Shown here one piece after another: positions 3,306 to 20,579 of a stretch of DNA of 21,646 bases; within the stretch, counting starts at the first letter, position 1, and each line of letters begins with the position of its first letter. This DNA comes from a virus: IMG/VR virus record IMGVR_UViG_3300033994_001807, positions 1-21,646 of that record, one strand, 5' to 3'. Position numbers and translations under genes: made by a program. Under the pieces are notes generated by a model. It searched no databases. It saw only the letters and a program-made list of their open reading frames with translations, and was not told the DNA's origin.

Positions 3306-4970
3306 TTAAGCACCACCAATAGTTTCCAATCCGTTCACATATACTTTACCATAGAACTCACCTCTTACCATTTCTTTGGCGTAGCGAGTCATTACACCCT
3401 TACGAGGAGTAAAGTTTTTGTAATCGTACACAAGAGGTGTCATAATCAATGGAATGTATGGAGCGTAAACAGCACCAGTTTCCAAGAATTGTGTTCCTCT
3501 GTAACCCATCAAAATCAAGTTTTCTTGCATATATGGGTTCTTATAAACCTGATATCTTTGTGCGAAAGAACCTACTTTGGTCATACCAAATGCAAATTGT
3601 CTTTCATCACCAGTTCCATCAGCAGTGTATCCTGGAATTGATTCCAAAATAGTAGCAACATCAGGAGAACATACTAAGAAGTTTGCACCACCACGCATTG
3701 TCTTAGCGTGAATTTGGTTAGAAACTCTCTGCAATACAGTTCCCAAAGTTGCGAACCAAGTACCCTGAATGTAAGCTGCTACATTAGTAGTGTTCGTATT
3801 TGTGAATGTACTTCCATTCCATTCCTGTCCAATTCTTGCAGACCAGTAACCTGTAGTCAATGCGTTCTGAATCAACATGTCCAAAATCTCAAAATCAATC
3901 TCTTGTGATACATATTCAGATAACATTGAAGTTAATTCTGCTTCTGCATCAATAGAGTGATATGCGTTTAAGTCCTGCGCGAATTCAGGTGTCCATTGTG
4001 CTTTCAACTTACGAGTTTTAGCAACAATTGGAACTGAACGCATTTCAATGTTCAATTCTGGGATTTCCAAATCCGTTTCAGGATTTACTGCCATTTGTGT
4101 TTTTGTTACCTCAAAATCACCACGAGTTACATCGGTTGGTTGTTTTTGATACTTAACAGTCAAATTAGATTGTGCATCTGTAGCTTCAATTGAACCACTC
4201 ACAATAAATGAAATGGTTGTATCATTTACATTCTTTGTGAATTGTGGGAATACTTTTGAAATACCAGAGTGCTGAAGTGTAAATGCACGAACACCTTCCA
4301 AATCAGGTCTTGTTAAGCCAGCAGCTGCGATTGTAACTTTAGAAAATGCAGTAGAACCACTGTAAGTTGCAATAAAGTTACTATCCCAATTAAATTCATC
4401 ATCATCAGCAGCAAGGCCAGGAACTACAGCAGCAATAGAACCGGTAGTAGTTGCTGGTGAAAAAGAACCAGATACTCTAATAGTAGCTGAATCATCGTTG
4501 ATAGTGTAACCAAAACGACCAGCGCCATACAAACCTTCGGAGGCTTGGTTGGCTGTCTCGGTAATACCAAATACTGAATCGGATTGTGAATCTTTACCCG
4601 AACCTGTTGTAAAACCAGGCTGACCTGTTCCATACTTAAAATCTAAATAGAAAATAAGACCGGATGGGAGATTCATAGGTTGAACTGAAACAAACTCTTT
4701 TGCAGCGATTTCAGAGAAAATACGGCGAACAAGCGGAAGGGCTACACCATTCCACTCTTCAGAGTTGTTGAACATTGATGTGGCAGAAGCTTCAGTTACT
4801 AACTGCTTTGCCTGGTTTTCCAAAAGTTGAGCCATGTTGTTGATTTCGGTCTCATTAGTAATTTCATCTAAAAGACCGGTTTTTTTCCACTTGGCTACTA
4901 AACCTTTGGCTTCTTTGCGAAGAACTCTTTCGAATCCTGCGCTTTCTTTTAAAATGCTATTTATATTCAT
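3306..4970 (-). CDS. 23: Major capsid protein, gp23-like
   Basis: A 554-aa T4 gp23 homologue. The N-terminal third contains the family signature VALPLVRRIF, EIAAKEFVSVQPMN and PSGLIFYLDFKYG (about residues 76-116). The C-terminus has YAPYIPLIMTPLVYDYKNF, TPRKGVMTRYAKEMVRGEFYGKV, also typical of gp23. Residues about 118-285 form a Ser/Thr-rich region (GSFSPATTTGSIAAV, STAFSKVTIAAAGL) at the position of the gp23 insertion domain. LVTE-A at 57-61 matches the prohead-protease site of T4 gp23 (FLTE-A), so mature protein probably starts at A61. An SD-like AAAGGA precedes the ATG by 7 nt. It follows the scaffold gene by 31 nt and ends at a strong terminator. T4 gp23 is 521 aa; this is slightly longer. 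Confidence 0.97.
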   Translation of the reverse strand: MNINSILKESAGFERVLRKEAKGLVAKWKKTGLLDEITNETEINNMAQLLENQAKQLVTEASATSMFNNSEEWNGVALPLVRRIFSEIAAKEFVSVQPMNLPSGLIFYLDFKYGTGQPGFTTGSGKDSQSDSVFGITETANQASEGLYGAGRFGYTINDDSATIRVSGSFSPATTTGSIAAVVPGLAADDDEFNWDSNFIATYSGSTAFSKVTIAAAGLTRPDLEGVRAFTLQHSGISKVFPQFTKNVNDTTISFIVSGSIEATDAQSNLTVKYQKQPTDVTRGDFEVTKTQMAVNPETDLEIPELNIEMRSVPIVAKTRKLKAQWTPEFAQDLNAYHSIDAEAELTSMLSEYVSQEIDFEILDMLIQNALTTGYWSARIGQEWNGSTFTNTNTTNVAAYIQGTWFATLGTVLQRVSNQIHAKTMRGGANFLVCSPDVATILESIPGYTADGTGDERQFAFGMTKVGSFAQRYQVYKNPYMQENLILMGYRGTQFLETGAVYAPYIPLIMTPLVYDYKNFTPRKGVMTRYAKEMVRGEFYGKVYVNGLETIGGA

Positions 4971-5001: not shown

Positions 5002-6090
5002 TTATTTTTTGATGTTAGCAAGCTTTTGGAATCTTGTAGCCAACGAAGAACCTTCGGTTATGATACCAGCAGGTTTTGTTCCTTTGGTTGGTTTAGATGC
5101 AAATGATTCTCTAACAAATCTTTTTTGTGATTTTTTAGCAACATTAAGGTTTTCACCCAATGTAGCAAACACTAATTTTACTTCTCTCAAAGATGAAGCA
5201 CGGTCAAAGTTTTCTACAACTTTAACTTTTTGCTTTTCATTCAAATCAAAGTTTCTGAAAAGTTTGTTTGTGTAAAGTAGTTTTGCATTCAAAAGGTTTA
5301 CTTCGTTAATGGTGTTCTTCAACGATTTAATTACTTTATATGCTTCTTCCAATTCACCCTTCATTTCTTCAGCCTCTTCTTCAGTCATTCCACCCTCTTC
5401 TTCATCTGCTGGCTCTTCACCATTCATTTCTCTAAGGGCTTTGATAACTTCATTCAAATCAACTTCTTCATCGCCACCTTCTTCTTCAAAGAACTCACCA
5501 GTTCCTTGCTCATCTTCGGTTTCAGAATCGTAGTTAGCAACTTTATTATCACCAGCACCAATTTCAGATGACTCTAATTCTTGTAATCTTTTTGATACTC
5601 TTTCACGAATTTTTTTCAATTCTGTGATTTCTGGGTTTTCTTCTTCTTCTTCGGATACAGGCTCTTCTTCCATTTCACCTTCCAATTCTCTGATAATTGA
5701 TTCTAAGTCTAAATCACCCATTTCATCATCATCTTCTTCAGCAGGTTCTTCGGTTTCAAATTCAGCACCCATTTCATCATCATCTTCTTCAACAGGTTCT
5801 TCGGTTTCAAATTCACCACCCATTTCATCTTCTTCTTCAACAGGTAATTCTTCACCCATTTCATCCTCTTCACCCATATACTCATCGGTTGTTGCAAACT
5901 CTTCTTCTTCCTCCATTGGAACTTCTTCATCTTCTAACTCTTCAGCAATTTTGTGAGACAACATTGATTGGAGTCTTGGAGTGAATGCTTCCTCAAGGGC
6001 GATTTTTGCATTTGCTAATGCTGTTTCTTTAACGGCTTTAGCATCGGCGATTGCTTCTTTAAGCAAATCTTTATTGCCTTTATTTTTCAT
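5002..6090 (-). CDS. 22: Prohead core scaffold, gp22-like
   Basis: A 362-aa extremely acidic protein. The N-terminus (KEAIADAKAVKETALANAKIALEEAFTPRLQSML, about 11-44) and C-terminal part (NEVNLLNAKLLYTNKLF, then NFDLNEKQKVKVVENFDRA, about 263-298) match T4-like prohead core scaffold proteins. Between them lie Glu/Asp-rich low-complexity repeats (DEMGAEFETEEPAEEDD) and a helical segment. The scaffold assembles inside the prohead and is later degraded by gp21; IITE-G near the C-terminus and IALE-E near the N-terminus are possible cleavage points. AGGAG sits 5 nt before the ATG. Its place directly before the capsid gene is the T4 order. Longer and more repetitive than T4 gp22 (269 aa). Confidence 0.92.
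   Translation of the reverse strand: MKNKGNKDLLKEAIADAKAVKETALANAKIALEEAFTPRLQSMLSHKIAEELEDEEVPMEEEEEFATTDEYMGEEDEMGEELPVEEEDEMGGEFETEEPVEEDDDEMGAEFETEEPAEEDDDEMGDLDLESIIRELEGEMEEEPVSEEEEENPEITELKKIRERVSKRLQELESSEIGAGDNKVANYDSETEDEQGTGEFFEEEGGDEEVDLNEVIKALREMNGEEPADEEEGGMTEEEAEEMKGELEEAYKVIKSLKNTINEVNLLNAKLLYTNKLFRNFDLNEKQKVKVVENFDRASSLREVKLVFATLGENLNVAKKSQKRFVRESFASKPTKGTKPAGIITEGSSLATRFQKLANIKK
5717..5870 (-). repeat. 51-nt tandem repeat inside the scaffold gene
   Basis: The segment beginning CCCATTTCATC on the plus strand recurs at 5717, 5768 and 5819, exactly 51 nt apart, with a shortened copy at 5855. It encodes a 17-residue unit (DEMGAEFETEEPAEEDD) in the acidic part of the scaffold. 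The first two spacers differ by only a few bases, which suggests recent slippage or unequal recombination. Confidence 0.9.
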
Positions 6091-6832: not shown

Positions 6833-8089
6833 TTATTTTTTATGTGATTTAAATCCCTGCCCCTTCATCCACCAAGCCAATGCCCAAGGATTATCAATAC
6901 CCGGTTCATCTTTCATCGCTTTTACTGTTTTTTCCCATCCTTCAGGTGCAACTTCGTTGGTTACTTTTTTATTTTCCATAAATGGTTTAAAAGCCGAAAT
7001 AACCTTATCTGCTGTCATTTTATCAAATTTGTTTTGCATTGCAACATCACCAACTTTGTACAATTTCAACAACTTTTCTGCTGTTTTCTTATCAACTTTT
7101 GTAGAACCAACACGGGAAGTAGAACCATCTACTACACTCTTTAACAAGTCAGATAATTTTACATTTGCTTCATTTACTTTTTTTTTTAAAATAAGATTTG
7201 ATAGTTTCATTTCACCAACAAAATCTTTTGCATTTTCTTTATCTTGCGGGTCTACATCGGTTACTTTATAAGTCTTACCACCAACAGTGAAAGTATCCTC
7301 ACCTGCTGCAATTGCTCTTGCTCTTTCAGCACCAAATTCATTACCTTCATCCATTACGATTTCTGCATCACTCAATTTTCCTTTAACAAGACCACTTACA
7401 GTTCTAATTACAATTTCGTTACCTTTAACAGAATAAACCATCCCTGTCTTATTTTGCGATTTAAGATGGACAGTATCTCCAAACTTTGGTGTTTTTGCTT
7501 CTTTGATTGATTTTTTGTTTATTAATTGACTTAATTTCATGTTTTCTCCTACAAAATCTTTTGCATTTTCTTTATCTTCGGAATCTACATCCGTTACTTT
7601 AAATGTTTTATCACCAACTTGGAATGTATCTTCACCTGCTGCAATTGCTTTTGCTCTTTCAGCACCAAATTCATTACCTTCTTTTATTTCGTAATATTTA
7701 CCCAATATCTCACCAATTTCATCATAAGACGATTCCAACCTTTGCTGGAGAGTTGATACTTCTTTGATAGTGTTTGTAAAAATCTTAAAAGATTCGTTCA
7801 TAGATTTCATATGACGAGAAACAGTTACCTTATCAAACCAATCACCAGTTTCTTGTAAAGTTAATTTATGAGCAGTTTCAACAATCTTTTTAATGTTTTG
7901 GTATGCTTCCATCAAATTACCATTATGGTAAATTGCCTCACCAATTTTTCGGTATGAAGCAACTGCCTCAACAAAAGCCCTTTTTTCTTCATTGGTCATT
8001 TTTGTATCATCTAAATCTTCCTCACCAATGTTTAATCTACGATAATCCATGTGTTGTGATTCTTTTAATAAGTTAAATAGTTTTTTCAT
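6833..8089 (-). CDS. Multi-module putative internal head protein (418 aa)
   Basis: Not a single known enzyme; a chain of small units. Residues 1-10 (MKKLFNLLKE) resemble a capsid-targeting peptide. Residues 11-135 are a helical module (MTNEEKRAFVEAVASYRKIG, LQQRLESSYDEIGEILGKYY) that I recall from other T4-like phages. Residues 137-182 and 248-293 are two near-identical copies of a GNEFGAERAKAIAAGEDTF unit, each followed by a peptide MKLSxLI--KK(S/V)(I/N)(K)E. Residues 201-246 are SH3-like. Residues 380-418 contain GWEKTVKAMKD and NPWALAWWMKGQGFKSH. Junctions SIKE-A (197), KVNE-A (307) and VTNE-V (379) fit prohead-protease specificity. AAGGA precedes the ATG. I infer a packaged, processed protein; function of the pieces is unknown. 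Confidence 0.75.
   Translation of the reverse strand: MKKLFNLLKESQHMDYRRLNIGEEDLDDTKMTNEEKRAFVEAVASYRKIGEAIYHNGNLMEAYQNIKKIVETAHKLTLQETGDWFDKVTVSRHMKSMNESFKIFTNTIKEVSTLQQRLESSYDEIGEILGKYYEIKEGNEFGAERAKAIAAGEDTFQVGDKTFKVTDVDSEDKENAKDFVGENMKLSQLINKKSIKEAKTPKFGDTVHLKSQNKTGMVYSVKGNEIVIRTVSGLVKGKLSDAEIVMDEGNEFGAERARAIAAGEDTFTVGGKTYKVTDVDPQDKENAKDFVGEMKLSNLILKKKVNEANVKLSDLLKSVVDGSTSRVGSTKVDKKTAEKLLKLYKVGDVAMQNKFDKMTADKVISAFKPFMENKKVTNEVAPEGWEKTVKAMKDEPGIDNPWALAWWMKGQGFKSHKK
7193..7348 (-). repeat. Intragenic repeat copy B (GNEFGAER module)
   Basis: Encodes residues 248-299 of the 418-aa protein. It is the second copy of a unit found 333 nt away at 7523-7681, with long identical stretches such as ACAAAATCTTTTGC and CAGCACCAAATTCATTACC on the plus strand. 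The protein copies differ at only a few positions (K/R, Q/T, D/G, F/Y, SE/PQ). Confidence 0.92.
7523..7681 (-). repeat. Intragenic repeat copy A (GNEFGAER module)
   Basis: Encodes residues 137-189 of the same protein and includes the trailing MKLSQL peptide, so the duplicated unit is module plus targeting-like peptide. It has one extra residue (N) before MKLS compared with copy B. A third, more diverged version (GNAFTGALFKARKEGLKEF) sits in the 585-aa protein at about 18420-18485. Confidence 0.92.
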
Positions 8090-8103: not shown

Positions 8104-9687
8104 TCAGTAAGAACCTGGTCTATTACCTTTTTTCATAGAAGTTGCCCAAATACCAATCATCTTTTTAATATCAGCGGGAATTTCTTTATCATAAATAGTT
8201 AGTTTACCATCTTTTCCTATATGGGCTATCGTTTCATAATCACCATCTTTTTCTTCTGCCCTATTCCAAATAGTTAAACCATTACCCAAATACCCAGAAC
8301 CAATATCGTATTTTTTAGCTTCCTTCACTAAATTTTGAAATTTCATCAATACAATTGCGTAATTACCCACTTCTCTTTCTGCGCCAGCTGCGTATTTTTT
8401 ATTTACAATTGCAATAGTGTTCCCAGATACTTTAATTATATACATTGGTATCATTTCAGTTGAAAAATCATATTTAATTCCTGCTTTTTTCAATTCAGCA
8501 CCGATATTCATAAAAGAAGATGCGTTTTTTACAGCCGCTTCAATTTTATCTAAATCAGCATCGTATTTACCTTCGTTTACTGATTCATATTTTTGTATAA
8601 ATTGCATAAATGATTTAAAATCTTTTGCCTTTTTTACTGCATCTGCAACATGGGGTCTATCCAATACCTTTCCATATTTTTTTTCAAAATTAGGATTGTA
8701 TCCTGATGTATCTTTGGCCATTTTGTAAAACTCTGCCCAGTCAATTTTATCCTCGTTTATTGATTCATCTATTGCTTTACCAAATCCTTTTTTATTAGCT
8801 AAAGAAACTAAAGTTTTTAAATCTTCGGGCTTGTTTCTATTATACTTATCTGCGTTCTTTCTATTTTTGAATATTACCGATACTTTTTTACCATTATCAT
8901 CAATCATAATGATAATACCATTCTTACCAAAACTTCTTTCATCAAATGCTTTTATAGATTCGTTTAGTAATTTTTCCGAATATACAGTCATACCGGTGTT
9001 GTCCTCAATTGTAAATATATAACCCGGTATATTTGTAACCTTTTTCATATGTTCAAACTTTGCAGGAATTTCATTTTTTGTTTTTACCTGTGTTTGATAA
9101 TATACTTTTTTATTAAACGATACTACAATAGTCCAAGGACCTGTTTGAGAACCCTTTTTAATACCGGCCATCATTTTTGCTAAATTAGTAGCTTCGTTTA
9201 CTGATTCTTTGATATATTTCATAGAAGAGTTTGAACCATCGGTAAAGAATACATTATCACCATCAATCATTTTTACTTTTCTTTTGAATGGGCCTTTTTT
9301 ACCTAAAGCTGCTTCCCAATGTGGATTATCAACAACTTTAACCATTTGTCCAACTTTGATTTCTTCATTTACTGATTCGCCAAACATTTTAATCATTTTC
9401 TTTTGAATTGGATTATTCGGTTTTCCAGACACCGCAGTCACAAAATCCATTCTGTCTGAAAGTTTTCCCTTCTTAACAAATTGGAAAACTTTTTCGATAT
9501 CCAAATTGTGAGTATCAACAAACTTTTGAACTACATCTTTATTTAAACCGGTAAGTCCACCAATTTCCATTGCCGTTCTCGAAGCGGACTCTAATTTTAA
9601 GCTTCTTTGTGCGTTTTGAACTGCCTTCCAATTGATTTCTTTTTTTGCAACCTCTCTAATCATTTTTTTGAGTTGTTCTAATTTCAT
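8104..9687 (-). CDS. Multi-module putative internal head protein (527 aa)
   Basis: A string of at least six small modules separated by near-identical peptides: SVNE-E (108), SVNE-A (165), LLNE-S (243), SINE-D (312), SVNE-G (372) and LVKE-A (456). The start MKLEQLKKMIREVAKK parallels the prepeptides of two proteins at 19153-19996. Module 2 (109-161) looks SH3/KOW-like (VGQMVKVVDN, VKMIDGDNVFFTDGS). The last module (457-527) contains YDIGSGYLGNGLTIWNR and GDYETIAHIGKDGKLTIYD, resembling a domain I recall from large polyvalent proteins of plasmids and conjugative elements. I choose the ATG at 9687 because it overlaps the protease stop as ATGA and yields the MKLEQL start; a 531-aa form from 9699 is possible. 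Inferred: packaged polyprotein cut by the adjacent prohead protease. Confidence 0.75.
   Translation of the reverse strand: MKLEQLKKMIREVAKKEINWKAVQNAQRSLKLESASRTAMEIGGLTGLNKDVVQKFVDTHNLDIEKVFQFVKKGKLSDRMDFVTAVSGKPNNPIQKKMIKMFGESVNEEIKVGQMVKVVDNPHWEAALGKKGPFKRKVKMIDGDNVFFTDGSNSSMKYIKESVNEATNLAKMMAGIKKGSQTGPWTIVVSFNKKVYYQTQVKTKNEIPAKFEHMKKVTNIPGYIFTIEDNTGMTVYSEKLLNESIKAFDERSFGKNGIIIMIDDNGKKVSVIFKNRKNADKYNRNKPEDLKTLVSLANKKGFGKAIDESINEDKIDWAEFYKMAKDTSGYNPNFEKKYGKVLDRPHVADAVKKAKDFKSFMQFIQKYESVNEGKYDADLDKIEAAVKNASSFMNIGAELKKAGIKYDFSTEMIPMYIIKVSGNTIAIVNKKYAAGAEREVGNYAIVLMKFQNLVKEAKKYDIGSGYLGNGLTIWNRAEEKDGDYETIAHIGKDGKLTIYDKEIPADIKKMIGIWATSMKKGNRPGSY
8571..8586 (-). repeat. 16-nt module-junction repeat (copy 1)
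   Basis: The plus-strand word CTTCGTTTACTGATTC encodes the junction peptide ESVNE on the minus strand at residues 368-372 of the 527-aa protein. The same 16 bases recur exactly at 9192-9207 and 18485-18500. Confidence 0.9.
9192..9207 (-). repeat. 16-nt module-junction repeat (copy 2)
   Basis: Exact second copy, encoding ESVNE at residues 161-165 of the 527-aa protein. Near-copies with one mismatch at 9363-9378 and two mismatches at 8751-8766 mark two further junctions in the same gene. Confidence 0.9.
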
Positions 9688-10322
9688 ATTTTTTCCCAAT
9701 TTTTAGGACATTCGCAATATCCACCAATTTCACAAATAATATCTCGCATTATACTATTAGCAGTTTCATATTTATTAATTTTTGATTCTCTACTAACACC
9801 CTCATTAACAGGTTTCATAAAAGCCCCATGAGTAGATGGGTTACTTACAAAATCCCAACAAATTAAATCAAAATCGTTTTCTACAGCAACAGTACCATCT
9901 TCTCTAATTTGACGAACTGAACCCATACCTCGTGAAGATATTCCTACCGTACAACCTGCTTCTATCAATTCTTTAAGTATTCTGCCCGATGGGGTATTTA
10001 GTATTTCTACTTTACCAACAACATCTTTACCATTCCACCATACATCTCTAATAATATGTGAAGTATTTTTTAATTCCACCACCGATGATTCTGGGTGGTC
10101 TAACTCACCATATGCACGATTTTCTGTTATCTCTCTACCCTTATATTTATCAACCTCACGCTTCAAAATATTTTCGGGATATATTCTACCATTTTGGTTT
10201 TTTTCATTTGCCCTTTGAAGAACACCAGTTACAATTAATCTACCATTACCATTCATAGCAGCTTCTTTAAGCTGTTGTGGTTTTACATCAAATACAATAG
10301 TATCAATTAATAGTTGTTTCAT
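9684..10322 (-). CDS. 21: Prohead core protease, gp21-like (family S80)
   Basis: A 212-aa homologue of the T4 gp21 prohead serine protease. Motifs in order are QNGRIYPENIL (43-53), RAYGELDHPE (69-78) with the catalytic His at H76, VWWNGKDVVGKVEIL (94-108), GCTVGISSRGMGSV (123-136) with the catalytic Ser at S129 or S130, and DFDLICWDFVSNPSTHGAFM (150-169). The protease activates inside the prohead and cuts scaffold, capsid and internal proteins after L/I-x-E. PVNE-G at 171-175 is a possible self-processing site. I choose ATG 10320-10322, one base after the upstream stop; a GTG three codons earlier (10331) is also open. Its stop overlaps the 527-aa gene as ATGA. Confidence 0.95.
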   Translation of the reverse strand: MKQLLIDTIVFDVKPQQLKEAAMNGNGRLIVTGVLQRANEKNQNGRIYPENILKREVDKYKGREITENRAYGELDHPESSVVELKNTSHIIRDVWWNGKDVVGKVEILNTPSGRILKELIEAGCTVGISSRGMGSVRQIREDGTVAVENDFDLICWDFVSNPSTHGAFMKPVNEGVSRESKINKYETANSIMRDIICEIGGYCECPKNWEKI

Positions 10323-10323
10323 A

Positions 10324-10851
10324 TCAGGCACCCAATTGTCTTATTTTACTTGAAATCCGGTTTAATCGCTCTGATATTTTAGAAAAATTGTTTCTTGTTT
10401 TTTTCCAATAAGCACCAGATGAAATACCCATTTCTGTCTTTAGTTTTATATTTTGATTTACTAAATGTTCAACCTCATATATCTTTCTATTAATTTCTTT
10501 AATAGCCCTATTAATTTTATATTGGGGGGAACCTGTTTCATCTTTTCGGTATTGACGATAGTTCATTTCATTGATGACATCCTCAATCTTTTTTTCCCAA
10601 TTTTCTAAAAAATTTCTTTTTACACTTTTTATTTTTTTATACCCCAACACCTCAATATGGTCATTATCCATACCCGCCGTATTTTTCGCAAAAGCATGTG
10701 GAGTTCGTGGTGGACCAGCACCGCCATCCAAATTAGCGGTAACATTTTGTTCACCCAAATCCTCATCATCCTTTTCATCGGGATTAACGATTTCCTCTTC
10801 TTCTAATTGCTTAAATTTTTTATCAAGCTCTTCAATTAAAAACCTACTCAT
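10324..10851 (-). CDS. Conserved head-region protein, gp68-position
   Basis: A 175-aa protein of unknown function. An acidic N-terminus (KQLEEEEIVNPDEKDDEDLGE) is followed by GGAGPPRTPHAFAK and VLGYKKIK (about 42-74) and a long basic helical region (SPQYKINRAIKEINRKIYEVE, KIRQLGA). I recall similar sequences next to portal genes in other T4-like environmental phages, but no characterised function. It sits between portal and protease, where T4 carries genes 67 and 68 for prohead core proteins, so a core or assembly role is inferred from position. It overlaps its upstream neighbour by one base (TAATG) and the protease gene follows immediately. Confidence 0.75.
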   Translation of the reverse strand: MSRFLIEELDKKFKQLEEEEIVNPDEKDDEDLGEQNVTANLDGGAGPPRTPHAFAKNTAGMDNDHIEVLGYKKIKSVKRNFLENWEKKIEDVINEMNYRQYRKDETGSPQYKINRAIKEINRKIYEVEHLVNQNIKLKTEMGISSGAYWKKTRNNFSKISERLNRISSKIRQLGA

Positions 10852-11690
10852 TATTGAACACCCTTTAATTCGTTTAACAATTGATAGTATCTTAAAAGCC
10901 CAAGTGCTTGAACCTCCGATACGATTTTTGCGTTGGATAAATTATCAATCAACCCAATAACCTCTTTTAACTTAATGGAAGAAACTTTATCAGTAATTTT
11001 AAACTTTGAGAATTCATTTTTAAGTTTTTTACTTTCCCTTAAAATAAATCTTTTTAAATTGTCTGAATTATCAATATTGTTAATATAATTTCTAAGAACC
11101 AATTTTTGTTCGTTGGTTAGTTCTTTATACTTATCATTAAATTTATCAACTAAAAACTTATAAGCCAATAACCTAACATCTTTTGATTCCTTACTATACA
11201 AATCAGTATTTTCTTCTTTTATAGGTTTTTTTGTTTTTGTTATATTTTCTAAAATTTGATTTTTACATTCAACCCATTCTTTTGGGGATGTATTTTCTTG
11301 ATTTTCAAATAATTTATATATAGTGGCAAGTGATTTATAGTTATTTACCCTATACTTAAAAAAATCTTTAGCATCAAACTTTTCATTTATTGATTTAATA
11401 AGATTATATTTTTCTTTTTTTAAATTCGTTTCATTTAATTTTTTTCTTTCACCCAATACAATATTAAGAAACTCACTTGCTTTATATGTATTATCAAAGT
11501 TTTCTTTGACAAGATATTGATACATTTTAAGTTCTTTACTTAATTCACTACCCTGCTTAAAATGCTTTTTAATAATAGATAATCCTATTGAATTTTTTTC
11601 ATTCAAAGTATCAGATGCAATCTGCCTAACAAGAAGTTCAAATAAAACCCCAGTGTTTTTAAATTTAGAATGCTTTAATTTAGTGTTCAT
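10851..11690 (-). CDS. Conserved head-region protein, gp67-position
   Basis: A 279-aa Lys-rich, predominantly helical protein of unknown function. The N-terminus NTGVLFELLVRQIASDTLNE and the middle segment KEKYNLIKSINEKF...DFFKYRVNNYKSLATIYKLFE look conserved relative to other environmental T4-like phages as I remember them. No catalytic motif, membrane segment or signal peptide is visible. It follows the portal gene by 45 nt, in the slot of the T4 prohead core genes, but it is far longer than T4 gp67 (80 aa) and I see no real similarity. AGGA lies upstream of the ATG. A head assembly role is inferred only from position. Confidence 0.75.
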   Translation of the reverse strand: MNTKLKHSKFKNTGVLFELLVRQIASDTLNEKNSIGLSIIKKHFKQGSELSKELKMYQYLVKENFDNTYKASEFLNIVLGERKKLNETNLKKEKYNLIKSINEKFDAKDFFKYRVNNYKSLATIYKLFENQENTSPKEWVECKNQILENITKTKKPIKEENTDLYSKESKDVRLLAYKFLVDKFNDKYKELTNEQKLVLRNYINNIDNSDNLKRFILRESKKLKNEFSKFKITDKVSSIKLKEVIGLIDNLSNAKIVSEVQALGLLRYYQLLNELKGVQ

Positions 11691-17381: not shown

Positions 17382-19139
17382 TTACCAATATGAATTTATA
17401 TCCTCACCACCACCGATTTTAGACCAATGGCGGGGTAAATTACAACTCCAATAACCTGGTGTAGTTTTATCTTTCTTATCAGGACAATTGTGCCTGTCTG
17501 AAAATGCTTTTCTTGCTTCTGGGTTATTTATTTTTGCAGTTAATCCACCCTTTACATCGCCGAAAGTTACTTTTCTAATATTATCACTTTCTGGGTCTTT
17601 TACATAAACTACATATTTTTTACCTTCACCTGAATTTCTTTTGGGTGAATTTAATTCTACTTCTTGTCCCTGATATTCTGCTTCGGTTAAAATTGGAAAA
17701 TCTAAAAGAACTTTTTTTCCCTCATAAATACCAACCTTACCTAAATCGGAATCTAAAAACCATTCATCGCTTTCATTCATTGGTATAAATTCACCCTTTT
17801 TCCAAAGAGTTCTACATTCATTTACCAACTTAAAGAATTTCGGAGAACCATACCTGTAAATATTTTCTGATATTGGTTTTTTGTTTTTTATGTGATATTG
17901 AAGCCCCTCACTCAAGTTTTTTTTTACTTCACCCAACGGATTACCATTTACATTTAACTCACCATTTAGGTAATGTTTCGCATTTACCATTAGAGTTTTT
18001 GCATTAACAATATCAGATTGCCACCAATGTGGAAAATCAATCTCTTCCTCCGCATTATCAAATTGCCCTAATAATTCATATAATTCTTTTGCATATTTTG
18101 CGATACGAAAAAGGTCTGCTTTTAACATATTTGGTTCATCGTCTTGATGCCCCACATCTATATCCTCTGTCAAACTTTTTAACTTCTTTAACTTTGTTGT
18201 TAAATCAGCCATATTTTTCAAATGGGCTTTTTGCGCAGGGGTTCTATCATCCTGTGGAATTTTTGTAAACTCCACCGTTTTTTTGGCGTTATCTTTTAAT
18301 TTTTTTTGGATTGATAACATCTCCTTTTTTTGTTTTTCAGTACCCTTTCCCACTTTTTTAACTGAAGAAACCGATGGTTCATCATCATCAACTTCATTTA
18401 TAACAGGGTATTTCTTACCACCAAATTCAAACTCTTTCAATCCTTCTTTTCTTGCTTTAAAAAGTGCCCCAGTAAAAGCATTTCCTTCGTTTACTGATTC
18501 TTTTTTCATTTTTCTTTTTTGTAGAACTAATTGTTGAATTTGTGAAAATAAATCTGCAATATCTTTATCCAACTTTTTTTCTTCTGCGCTCATTGGTGAT
18601 TCAATATCTACATTGGAGTAAAGTTTTTTCTTTTTTGCAATTAATACATCTACTTTTTTAATTAAATCATTCTTTACCTTATCTAAATCTTTGATTACAT
18701 CTTCAGCAGTATTTTCTTTTATTACCCCTTCTTGCCTGTTCAACAACTTAAACGCAATAGTCTGCATTTTCATAAGTCCTGCGTTTACAAATTGGTCCCT
18801 ATTCTCCTGTTTCTTCAATTGGTCATAAACGGATATGATAGCGGATGCTGAATATGAATCTACCTTCATATTCTTTCCGGTCTTAGGGTCTTTAACTGAT
18901 TTATAACCTGACCTCATAACATCTCTTAGTTGAGTTATTACCGGCGGTTCATTCTTTGCTTCATTTACTACCCCTTCTTCGGTTTTCCAACCCCCACCAG
19001 CTGCTTTGTATTGTTTTGCTGCCCAGGCATTGGCGTAGGCACTTGGATATACGTCAAACTTTTTTTTTGCCTGCGATTTATAGTAAGACCATTTTGAAGG
19101 GTCGGTTGGAACATTCTTTTCTACCAATTGTTTTTTCAT
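17382..19139 (-). CDS. Multi-module putative internal head protein (585 aa)
   Basis: Another chain of small units. Residues 11-53 hold KKKFDVYPSAYANAWAAKQY, a motif I recall from phages and large DNA viruses (DUF5872-like). 219-246 is a GNAFTGALFKARKEG unit related to the repeats of the 418-aa protein. 326-395 holds DVGHQDDEPNMLKADLFRIA and FPHWWQSDIVNAK. 426-483 holds YGSPKFFKLVNECRTLWKKG. 487-585 ends in ARKAFSDRHNCPDKKDKTTP, GYWSCNLPRHW with two Cys. Candidate cleavage points are VVNE-A (60), VIKE-N (142), SVNE-G (218), VINE-V (249), SLTE-D (325), NLSE-G (411), PISE-N (425) and ILTE-A (486). ATG 19139 has GAGG 6 nt upstream; the TTG at 19151 is less likely. Inferred: packaged polyprotein. 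Confidence 0.75.
   Translation of the reverse strand: MKKQLVEKNVPTDPSKWSYYKSQAKKKFDVYPSAYANAWAAKQYKAAGGGWKTEEGVVNEAKNEPPVITQLRDVMRSGYKSVKDPKTGKNMKVDSYSASAIISVYDQLKKQENRDQFVNAGLMKMQTIAFKLLNRQEGVIKENTAEDVIKDLDKVKNDLIKKVDVLIAKKKKLYSNVDIESPMSAEEKKLDKDIADLFSQIQQLVLQKRKMKKESVNEGNAFTGALFKARKEGLKEFEFGGKKYPVINEVDDDEPSVSSVKKVGKGTEKQKKEMLSIQKKLKDNAKKTVEFTKIPQDDRTPAQKAHLKNMADLTTKLKKLKSLTEDIDVGHQDDEPNMLKADLFRIAKYAKELYELLGQFDNAEEEIDFPHWWQSDIVNAKTLMVNAKHYLNGELNVNGNPLGEVKKNLSEGLQYHIKNKKPISENIYRYGSPKFFKLVNECRTLWKKGEFIPMNESDEWFLDSDLGKVGIYEGKKVLLDFPILTEAEYQGQEVELNSPKRNSGEGKKYVVYVKDPESDNIRKVTFGDVKGGLTAKINNPEARKAFSDRHNCPDKKDKTTPGYWSCNLPRHWSKIGGGEDINSYW
18485..18500 (-). repeat. 16-nt module-junction repeat (copy 3)
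   Basis: Exact copy of CTTCGTTTACTGATTC (plus strand), encoding ESVNE at residues 214-218 of the 585-aa protein, more than 9 kb from the other two copies in a different gene. Confidence 0.9.
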
Positions 19140-19152
19140 AATTAACCTCAAA

Positions 19153-19647
19153 TTATGGTGTATAATTAGATATGTTCATTTTAACAAATGTTTCAATATC
19201 TTTTGGTGATAATACCTGCTGCATTTCAAATCCAGAAAAAGCCCGCGTACCTAAAAATACAAATCCTTTTGCGGTTTCATAGTTCGCAGGAATATCATCA
19301 TCAGTATTAACAAATTCAGATGGTAAATAAGTTACCAAAGCGTTAAATACCGAATGGTGTGGCCCAATTTCCGGATTTGGTTTTACCGATATCGGTTGAT
19401 TTCCTATCCTAAATTTTCTAATCATTAAACCATACCCCTTACCAGGATTTTGGTATCTTCTAAACCAATTATCTTTTTCTAAACGATAAACAGCAGTTTT
19501 TCCATCTACCTTTCTCATAAGAATCAATCTTATCATAGATTCGTTTGGTGGATCGGTTGGCATGTTTCTAAAATCTTTAACACTTGCTTCAGTTAAAACT
19601 GATTTTATTGATTCTCTAATCAATTTTCTTAATTGGGATTGTTTCAT
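19153..19647 (-). CDS. Putative internal head protein with prepeptide (164 aa)
   Basis: The first 20 residues begin MKQSQLRKLIRESIK and end SVLTE, followed by ASVKDFRNMP. This basic amphipathic helix ending in L-T-E then A has the same layout as the T4 capsid-targeting sequence of internal protein III (MKTYQEFIAE-A) and the same cleavage residues as T4 gp23 (LTE-A). The body (21-164) is a single beta-rich domain of unknown family, with VDGKTAVYRLEKDNWFRRYQ and EIGPHHSVFNALVTYLPSEF. GGAG lies 9 nt before the ATG. It follows the 114-aa gene by 4 nt and precedes the 585-aa gene. Packaging and cleavage are inferred from the prepeptide; the body's activity is unknown. Confidence 0.75.
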   Translation of the reverse strand: MKQSQLRKLIRESIKSVLTEASVKDFRNMPTDPPNESMIRLILMRKVDGKTAVYRLEKDNWFRRYQNPGKGYGLMIRKFRIGNQPISVKPNPEIGPHHSVFNALVTYLPSEFVNTDDDIPANYETAKGFVFLGTRAFSGFEMQQVLSPKDIETFVKMNISNYTP

Positions 19648-19651
19648 TTTT

Positions 19652-19996
19652 TTATGCTCCGGTTTTTACATATACAGGTTTTTGCCCTTTTTCTTTTTCA
19701 TTTCCTTTTTTGGCATCCCCACCCTTTTTTTGAGCTGCCCGTTTTCTTCTTACAAAACTTGCTATCCCATCCTTACCCAACTTTTGGGCTTTTTCTTTAG
19801 ATAAGCAAGCAGAATATGGTTCTCCCTCTTCAGCATCACCACACTTACCAAGTTTTTCACCTGTGGTAGAATACCTATCCCAACCACCACCAGTAGTTGA
19901 GCCGGTTTTACCCTTGCCAAACCATTTTCTTAAATCTTCTGCAATAACTTTTCTTACTGCTGATTTAATTAGGTGCTCAAGTTGTGGTTTCTTCAA
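19652..19996 (-). CDS. Putative internal head protein with prepeptide, TTG start (114 aa)
   Basis: I place the start at TTG 19994-19996, 7 nt after GGAG, because the resulting N-terminus MKKPQLEHLIKSAVR...VIAE-D aligns over exactly 20 residues with the prepeptide of the next gene. An ATG at 20041 is open but would overlap the upstream gene by 65 nt and bury this peptide. The mature part has GGGWDRYSTTGEKLGKCGDA, GEPYSACLSKEKAQKLGKDG and FVRRKRAAQKK, with two Cys spaced C-x13-C and a very basic C-terminus. This W-R-y...CGd...aCLs...RRKR pattern recurs in phages and large DNA viruses as far as I recall, without known function; nucleic-acid binding would fit the charge. Confidence 0.65.
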   Translation of the reverse strand: MKKPQLEHLIKSAVRKVIAEDLRKWFGKGKTGSTTGGGWDRYSTTGEKLGKCGDAEEGEPYSACLSKEKAQKLGKDGIASFVRRKRAAQKKGGDAKKGNEKEKGQKPVYVKTGA

Positions 19997-20579
19997 GTTC
20001 TTTCTCCAATTTTCCAATATAATCAACTCGTAACTTTTCAAAGTCTGTATCTACTTTTGATAGAACATCTTCTATATTAACTCCATTCCATTCTTCAACC
20101 GAACCATTTTCGTTGATGAACTTCATTTTTAACGCAACTTTAAGGGCCTCTTTTTCAAATTGAGCCTGCTTTAACCATGCTTTCGCATTCTCAAGCATTT
20201 TTCTTTTTTCATATCTATCATACTCTCCACTTATTCTTAGTTTTGATTCCATACTTAATACACAATCAAAACACATGCCGTGAAAAGCACGCATTTTTTC
20301 ATCCAATCTTTTTGGGTTTTTGCAGTCACAAACTTCCTTCATACAATTAGGAAACTTTCTCAAGTCCTCCCTTAATTGATGAAGCTTGCCGAGCTTTACT
20401 TTATATCCGGCTTTTTGCTCCCACATATCCCCATTCTCATCTTCCCATTGTTCACCAACTGAACGACGAACATAAGTAGGTGAGTTTTCAAAACCAACGG
20501 TTGTTTTTGTTTGCGTTTTATGAACACCCGCCAACATTTCAGTAACCGCTTTTGTATTTTTTAATTTACTATTTCCCAT
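19977..20579 (-). CDS. Cysteine-cluster protein, probable zinc binding
   Basis: A 200-aa protein of unknown function. GEQWEDENGDMWEQKAGYKVKL (about 42-63) is followed by a cluster C79, C84, C86, H100, C103 and C106 (FPNCMKEVCDCKN, then FHGMCFDCV), suggesting a zinc-knuckle or zinc-ribbon site. The rest is helical, with YDRYEKRKMLENAKAWLKQA. I recall similar proteins ('GDtWEqk...D.km...CfDCv') in T4-like cyanophages, always uncharacterised. Its end overlaps the start chosen for the 114-aa gene by 20 nt. It has no capsid-targeting-like prepeptide, in contrast to its two downstream neighbours. Confidence 0.7.
   Translation of the reverse strand: MGNSKLKNTKAVTEMLAGVHKTQTKTTVGFENSPTYVRRSVGEQWEDENGDMWEQKAGYKVKLGKLHQLREDLRKFPNCMKEVCDCKNPKRLDEKMRAFHGMCFDCVLSMESKLRISGEYDRYEKRKMLENAKAWLKQAQFEKEALKVALKMKFINENGSVEEWNGVNIEDVLSKVDTDFEKLRVDYIGKLEKELEETTT

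Follow-up and report, generated by a model that had tools for sequence, protein, structure and literature searches.

Modules of a predicted cargo polyprotein encoded beside the prohead protease of a T4-like aquatic phage appear re-sorted among related phages at protease-type junction sites

We analysed a stretch of 21,646 nucleotides (IMG/VR virus record IMGVR_UViG_3300033994_001807; hereafter the window) from a T4-like, aquatic phage. Its head region contains two neighbouring modular genes, referred to here as slot A and slot B, and a third gene of the same kind lies in a second cassette:

3306..4970 (-): Gp23 major capsid protein (E=2.1e-79)
5002..6090 (-): acidic scaffold-like protein, pI 4.2, with LLKE-A at the N-terminus and IITE-G near the C-terminus
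6833..8089 (-): slot B, second modular cargo gene, with the tag MKKLFNLLKE-S, a conserved first module and a repeated 60-aa module
8104..9687 (-): slot A, 527-aa modular cargo polyprotein, ATG at 9687
9684..10331 (-): gp21-like prohead protease (Peptidase_S77), the presumed cutter (PF03420, E=2e-32; phrog_207 head maturation protease, E=3.6e-55)
17382..19151 (-): third modular gene, 589 aa, with ESVNE-G, in the second cassette upstream of the terminase gene

As the first-pass annotation had stated, the protease gene lies directly upstream of slot A with an ATGA overlap, and the capsid protein carries LVTE-A, which we place at residue 60 in the N-terminal pro-region. This capsid site is kept as [VIL]xE-A in 17 of 19 distinct sequences and varies little within the clade. 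Downstream of slot A follow slot B (6833-8089), two small genes, the acidic scaffold-like gene and Gp23. The annotated phages nearest to the capsid protein are Microcystis phage Mel-JY01 (57.6%) and Flavobacterium phage immuto (51.0%). For comparison we used related IMG/VR contigs, in which tblastn confirmed 16 polyprotein loci and 73 protease loci, some of them sharing a contig. Most of the contigs that are long enough share the gene order terminase, portal, two smaller genes, protease, cargo, scaffold, capsid; core proteins are similar in length across them, and cargo ORF lengths vary widely. As a separate observation, the portal ORF measures 774-775 aa in L005, L006, L022 and L023 vs 633 aa, the difference being about 420 in-frame bases at position 301-302 of the window gene; an intein or similar insertion may account for it. 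In L032 the portal ORF reaches 1097 aa, and the terminase ORFs are split in L023, L031 and L035.

The slot-A product had been described as six small modules separated by prohead-protease-type sites. All six junctions are found where they had been placed (SVNE-E108, SVNE-A165, LLNE-S243, SINE-D312, SVNE-G372 and LVKE-A456) and module borders do lie at these sites, but the number of modules needs correction: six junctions give seven pieces, and a further border, LKLE-S at residue 33, is seen through homologues, although LKLE-S itself falls outside the pattern [LIVM]xE. By its sequence, slot A is a 33-aa leader followed by seven modules:

9589..9687 (-): basic leader, 33 aa, pI 10.1, ending LKLE-S; candidate capsid-targeting propeptide
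9364..9588 (-): module Q1, aa 34-108, helical, ending ESVNE
9193..9363 (-): module Q2, aa 109-165, ending ESVNE
8959..9192 (-): module Q3, aa 166-243, ending LLNE
8752..8958 (-): module Q4, aa 244-312, modelled as beta-beta-beta-alpha, ending ESINE
8572..8751 (-): module Q5, aa 313-372, modelled as helical, ending ESVNE
8320..8571 (-): module Q6, aa 373-456, ending LVKE
8107..8319 (-): module Q7, aa 457-527, C-terminal, with no site

The predicted pieces Q1-Q7 are small and basic (57-84 aa, 6.4-9.3 kDa, pI 8.8-9.6). Basic character is not universal among such pieces: pI exceeds 8 in 56% of 208 cargo segments, and slot B contains acidic ones. The slot-A leader resembles the leader MKPQQLKQLIREE.. 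that precedes Q6 in L181 and L183.

The junction motif is enriched in cargo proteins. Slot A matches [SLIT][VIL][NKT]E six times, whereas 2000 shuffled versions of this protein gave 0.42 matches on average and never as many as six; this pattern was shaped after the sites were known, so the weight of the test rests on the relatives. There, S[VIL]NE occurs 3.73 times per 1000 aa in 54 cargo proteins, compared with 0 in 68 terminase and 63 portal sequences, 0.08 in 58 protease, 0.26 in 32 capsid, 0.29 in 29 scaffold, 0.46 in 54 g10851 and 0.79 in 11 PhoH sequences. Counted apart, 26 cargo-position proteins of more distant contigs (L079-L088) contain no S[VIL]NE. Four of these distant protease loci (L079-L081 and L086) have a large ORF directly downstream of the protease gene and free of the S[VIL]NE linker, which may represent an older, less modular form. 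Elsewhere in the window, the conserved 279-aa protein at 10851-11690 contains four [SLIT][VIL][NKT]E matches (shuffle mean 0.6), though it is not a variable cargo gene. The observation of modules with junctions between them is real and not a product of chance.

In the relatives the modules recur in other orders, and also in the adjacent slot-B gene, in another cassette close to the terminase gene and behind short N-terminal tags. Segments of slot A found there by blastp end at the sites (29/33-108, 105-170, 160-243, 241-314, 370-456 and 446/451-527). A test of borders that uses no module definitions took 80 non-redundant proteins encoded downstream of the protease, with 425 internal alignment ends and 359 starts: 45.6% of the ends and 46.8% of the starts fall near [LIVM][NTKS]E, as against 23% of random positions, with a maximum of 28% in 300 draws. 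The commonest position of an alignment end is the Glu itself (52 of 425 at offset 0, 31 at +1). When dipeptides seen at least 10 times at alignment ends were scanned with no motif given, NE came out top by count (106, 6.8-fold), and only NM was proportionally higher (17 counts, 7.1-fold).

Scans with single modules recovered 46 loci for Q7, 18 for Q2, 36 for Q4 and five for Q3, as well as 79 for Q1 and 80 for Q6 from the best 80 of 126 and the best 80 of 116 relatives, respectively. Module occurrences were then deduplicated by their flanks. With the Q1 and Q6 rows drawn from the best 80 of 126 and best 80 of 116 relatives, [LIVM]xE is found no more than a few residues from the module start in 164 of the 179 cases that have upstream sequence (31 expected) and near the end of 122 of 131 non-C-terminal modules (33 expected), and it sits exactly at the module border in 107 of 121 distinct upstream contexts, where 3.0 were expected; the consensus of these contexts is E-S-V-N-E, and their last residue is Glu in 114 of the 119 that are full-length. 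Of the 14 misses, two (L145 and L170) come from rows at contig edges, and four (L331, L104, L229 and L235) are narrow, being off by a single residue or having a differing end. The 121 rows include seven copies identical to the window, of which six match by construction and one is a miss. A strict site follows 96 of 137 internal modules and none of 47 C-terminal ones (25 Q7, 12 Q6, nine Q1 and one Q4), Q1 and Q6 again being represented by the best 80 of 126 and of 116 relatives. Module occurrences are related by descent, and the counts are therefore not independent events. The first-pass annotation had made its proposal depend on conservation of the junction peptides in homologues; they do recur there between modules, and its picture of modules bordered by gp21-type sites is supported.

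Two contigs illustrate the exchange. L003 is nearly identical to the window in its terminase (99.4% at the nucleotide level), portal (98.8%), protease (98.5%), PhoH (98.9%) and scaffold (95.3%) genes, in the two genes between portal and protease (98.2 and 97.2%) and in g6498 (100%) and g6225 (99.6%), and its capsid gene is 94-98% identical over the aligned parts. Its slot A, however, has neither Q4 nor Q5, with Q7 following directly after Q3, and its slot B contains two copies of Q6. In L005, a contig shared with L020, Q1 runs directly into Q7 in slot A, and Q3 into Q6 in slot B. The joints of the swapped modules in both contigs are clean at the GAA codon. Sequence comparison shows the junction sites to be both module borders and points of exchange. 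This re-sorting between genes and between phages, which we regard as the more important finding, was absent from the first-pass proposal.

Modules are found at more than one place in the genome. A protease gene lies in the fetched flanks of 31 of 46 Q7, 17 of 18 Q2, 9 of 36 Q4 and all five Q3 loci, and of 41 of 79 Q1 and 57 of 80 Q6 loci taken from the best 80 of 126 and 116 relatives. Homologues of g19977 and g20602 identify a second location, upstream of the terminase gene; g19977 lies near 15 Q4 loci and 16 Q1 loci (the latter among the best 80 of 126 relatives). The fetched flanks of seven Q7 and seven Q4 loci, and of ten Q1 and eight Q6 loci among the best 80 of 126 and 116 relatives, contain no marker gene. 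Searches of INPHARED with tblastn gave no match to slot A at E up to 0.01 or to Q7 alone at E up to 5, and an alignment scan of bacterial genomes with Q1 found no relative.

Several modules also occur directly behind short N-terminal tags that end at the same kind of site as the junctions. Q1 follows the 9-aa tags MKLKSLLKE, MKMISLLKE and MKMMSLLKE, and Q6 follows MKISLTELLNE or MKPQQLKQLIREEIKNITKSLTE; these tagged forms mostly continue with further sequence behind the module. Q7 forms a complete 83-aa protein after MKSTRLTSILNE or MKSTRLTSILKE at two loci, the only true one-module protein seen. Slot-B proteins of the window's near relatives start MK..xLLKE-S, and similar starts of 9-10 aa are present in many relatives. 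The slot-A leader, with its border LKLE at residue 33, is longer than the slot-B tag MKKLFNLLKE-S. Within polyproteins we found five distinct tag-like stretches, as would result from a fusion of tagged genes. Taken alone, a loose tag pattern is unspecific: it matches the starts of 25 of 44 first-gene cargo proteins, and also those of 14 of 31 terminases and 11 of 39 proteases.

At the DNA level, the 15-nt sequence GAATCAGTAAACGAA has nine matches in the window with up to three mismatches, whereas 1.34 are expected; three are exact, three further ones lie at slot-A junctions, and the remaining three, elsewhere, are probably due to chance. The linker copies and the sixth slot-A junction are as follows:

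9364..9378 (-): ESVNE linker copy, one mismatch to GAATCAGTAAACGAA
9193..9207 (-): linker copy, exact
8959..8973 (-): KLLNE junction, three mismatches to the linker
8752..8766 (-): ESINE linker copy, two mismatches
8572..8586 (-): linker copy, exact
8320..8331 (-): LVKE junction
18486..18500 (-): linker copy, exact, inside the third modular gene

Across 351 distinct [ST][VIL]NE junctions, valine is encoded by GTA in 238 of 254 cases, asparagine by AAC in 257 of 351 and serine by TCA in 228 of 326, compared with 46, 39 and 38% elsewhere in the same frames. Information content drops beyond about 17 nt. The sequence GAATCNGTAAAYGAA occurs in 228 distinct contexts within the loci, and all 228 are read in the ESVNE frame, within ORFs of 80 aa or longer. 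The linker tends to one 15-nt sequence, its nucleotides being more uniform than the peptide requires. In a codon control beside three modules, linker valine was GTA in 30 of 32 cases and linker asparagine AAC in 30 of 39, and invariant module asparagines and serines were mostly less uniform; this control is small, with few comparable positions, and one module valine is as uniform as the linker. We regard the argument from codon uniformity as moderate.

Slot-B homologues in L003 and L005 contain slot-A modules, and module family M4 is common to the third gene and the first cargo gene of relatives. The only tblastn match to slot B in INPHARED is Mel-JY01, over 27% of the query. In that phage (L359) a gene annotated as RpsU (ribosomal protein S21), at 1184-1411, lies between the protease and capsid genes and adjoins a homologue of the slot-B first module. 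The two copies of the 60-aa slot-B module (GNEFGAERA[KR]AIAAGEDTF..) are located at 7169-7345 and 7499-7678 of the window; this is the most frequent family in relatives (43 segments), and each copy ends in an internal tag-like MKLS.L. The segmentation into families used the motif to place the cuts, and family counts are therefore descriptive and no test. In the window the second cassette (17382-20041) also encodes two small proteins, with the starts MKQSQLRKLIRESIKSVLTE-A and ..LKKPQLEHLIKSAVRKVIAE-D. Matches to the end of the third gene's product exist in Methylophilales phage Melnitz and Pelagibacter phage HTVC008M. In the cultured Flavobacterium phage vB_FspM_immuto (host Flavobacterium sp. 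LMO8), the gene immuto35A_191, upstream of the terminase gene, encodes 841 aa with repeated sites that include MNE-SVNE-G and SLNE-D; elsewhere in this phage genome a region matches the end of the third gene with 45.5% identity.

A full-length structural model of the slot-A product is mostly of low confidence (mean pLDDT 49.1); it was built from six sequences, since MAFFT stacked unrelated modules in an alignment that included module fragments. In this model Q1 (about residues 31-100) and Q7 (about 461-520) are confident, with borders at sites 108 and 456. An AlphaFold2 model of the Q4-Q5 pair (mean pLDDT 86.4) places three strands and helices before four helices, and residues 310-312 of SINE312 form its only stretch of at least three residues with pLDDT below 50. 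Models thus give confident folds for four of the seven modules (Q1, Q4, Q5 and Q7). The expectation that domain borders coincide with the sites holds for three of the six junctions, which lie at or between confidently modelled domains; given the poor full-length model, structural support is limited to those three.

Foldseek returned no match at E up to 0.001, and sequence searches of Pfam, PHROGs, PADLOC and PDB assigned no function to any module. Slot A has no Pfam match at E up to 0.001, a search that distant domains could escape, and the same holds for 18 of 20 other polyproteins scanned out of 41; the two matches in this set are DUF3008 and a sub-threshold YgxA-like hit. No effector domain was found in the 20 of 41 non-redundant polyproteins scanned with Pfam or in the 10 of 41 scanned with PHROGs. 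The first-pass annotation had also suggested that the pieces are injected as early effectors, a proposal that has no support beyond inference: Pfam, PHROGs and PADLOC show no effector domain in the window's proteins. We discount five weak candidates: KOW4_SPT5 for Q2 (E 0.11 and 0.03, below its cut-off), archaeal NusG on residues 159-228 (E 0.62-0.67), CAP REPEAT with the Q1 profile (E 1.6e-4 over the entire chain, with no single stretch passing), an OB-like arrangement for Q4 (best Z 3.9, rmsd 2.9, 59 aligned) and a RimK subdomain for the low-confidence part 165-231 (Z 5.4, rmsd 2.6, 58 aligned).

We consider it probable that slot A encodes a precursor of several small head-packaged proteins that are of the same type as the internal proteins of T4, joined in polyproteins open to shuffling and processed inside the prohead. 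The basic N-terminal leader would carry the chain into the prohead core, where the gp21-like protease encoded just upstream very likely cuts after the Glu of the [LIV]-x-E junctions, releasing the leader and seven basic mini-proteins that would stay with the DNA and probably be ejected with it. The junction would double as an exchange point: recombination at the repeated linker may carry entire modules from one place to another, be it slot A, slot B, the second cassette or a different phage, with fold and processing unharmed. A wider proposal, to which we give slightly less than an even chance, is combinatorial delivery, with a pool of mini-protein modules circulating among T4-like aquatic phages and the 15-nt linker serving as recombination joint and maturation-protease site at once. 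Single exchanges would then build new mixtures of injected proteins, each automatically packaged and released.

Could the chain instead be a filler of the prohead core, which like T4 gp22, gp67 and gp68 shapes the prohead, is shredded and leaves the head in pieces? In T4, gp22 and two further core proteins are cleaved into several fragments, most of which are removed (PMC9026906), so multiple sites are no proof of retention, and the conserved module family M1 (41 loci), usually right behind a tag, could be a core protein. However, a separate acidic scaffold gene (29 distinct sequences) lies between the cargo and capsid genes, slot-A content differs among contigs with nearly identical core genes, and Q1, Q4, Q5 and Q7 model as folded domains. 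The lack of a site after C-terminal modules also fits a separator rather than a shredding signal, and overall we think this explanation unlikely.

We give somewhat less credence still to the idea that the linker serves solely as a flexible spacer and recombination joint, with the modules remaining one fused protein inside or outside the virion. Conservation of the linker at the nucleotide level (the GTA, AAC and TCA codons, and the 228 of 228 15-mers in the ESVNE frame) is what such a joint would predict. A pure joint would not require a protease motif, though, and the P1 Glu and mostly V/I/L at P3 persist where both peptide and DNA differ (LLNE, LVKE, SIQE, VVTE); the same class of site closes the N-terminal tags and occurs in the capsid pro-region. 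Very improbable, in our judgement, is a polyvalent protein (Iyer et al. 2017) whose domains function either in the linked chain or once an embedded peptidase has released them. The slot-A product is multi-domain, mosaic and encoded by a phage near head genes, as are the proteins described in the relevant passages of PMC5512222; yet Pfam recognises no peptidase or known effector domain in it or in 20 of 41 further polyproteins, and its modules are only 57-84 aa long and separated by a uniform site.

If processing in the prohead is confirmed as the correct reading, the head maturation protease would be both the trigger of capsid expansion and the processor of a multi-product cargo polyprotein. 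Polyprotein processing is a strategy familiar from RNA viruses; to our knowledge, processing of a multi-product cargo polyprotein by a head maturation protease has not been described for tailed phages. A literature search of titles and the starts of abstracts, with most subscription journals and preprints outside its scope, found no shuffled modules separated by prohead-protease sites. Such processing would explain how the packaged proteins of these phages change quickly, would supply a separator, ready for use, when several proteins are to be loaded into phage heads, and would make the many small uncharacterised modules candidates for roles in host take-over or counter-defence. The idea is testable, since Flavobacterium phage immuto, a relative available in culture, carries a similar gene.

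Among known systems, the T4 internal proteins IPI, IPII and IPIII come close. As PMC9026906 describes in its passages on head maturation, they carry N-terminal targeting propeptides of 10-19 residues, the first ten of which suffice for incorporation of IPIII, and gp21 cuts after L/I-x-E; an Asp at position 10 of the IPIII targeting sequence inhibits processing. With the system described here these internal proteins share a gp21-type protease, small basic products (predicted here) and a content that varies among related phages, and their short leader ending in [LI]-x-E is resembled by the start of slot B and of proteins in many relatives; they differ in having one mature domain per gene, as against seven modules per chain, shared linkers and exchange between genes. 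The T4 core proteins gp22, gp67 and gp68, described in the same passages, also have several gp21-type sites in one chain, the cuts in slot A being predicted; their pieces are mostly expelled, whereas here four of seven modules model as folded domains and tag-preceded forms exist. In SPN3US, the sections of PMC10052503 on processing list 14 detected sites in nine proteins, 13 of which remove N-terminal propeptides, the remaining one being the protease's own C-terminal site. The inner-body or ejection proteins of phiKZ and SPN3US resemble the processing predicted here in cargo cleavage C-terminal to Glu, a relative of gp21 and several sites per propeptide, but those sections and the corresponding ones of PMC9026906 describe no string of distinct mature modules. 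Polyvalent proteins, as characterised in the relevant passages of PMC5512222, are likewise mosaic, multi-domain phage proteins thought to be delivered with the DNA, and P1 DarB has an N-terminal capsid signal according to the account in PMC9024508; unlike the chains described here, in which none was recognised, polyvalent proteins have known enzyme domains and, in some cases, embedded peptidases.
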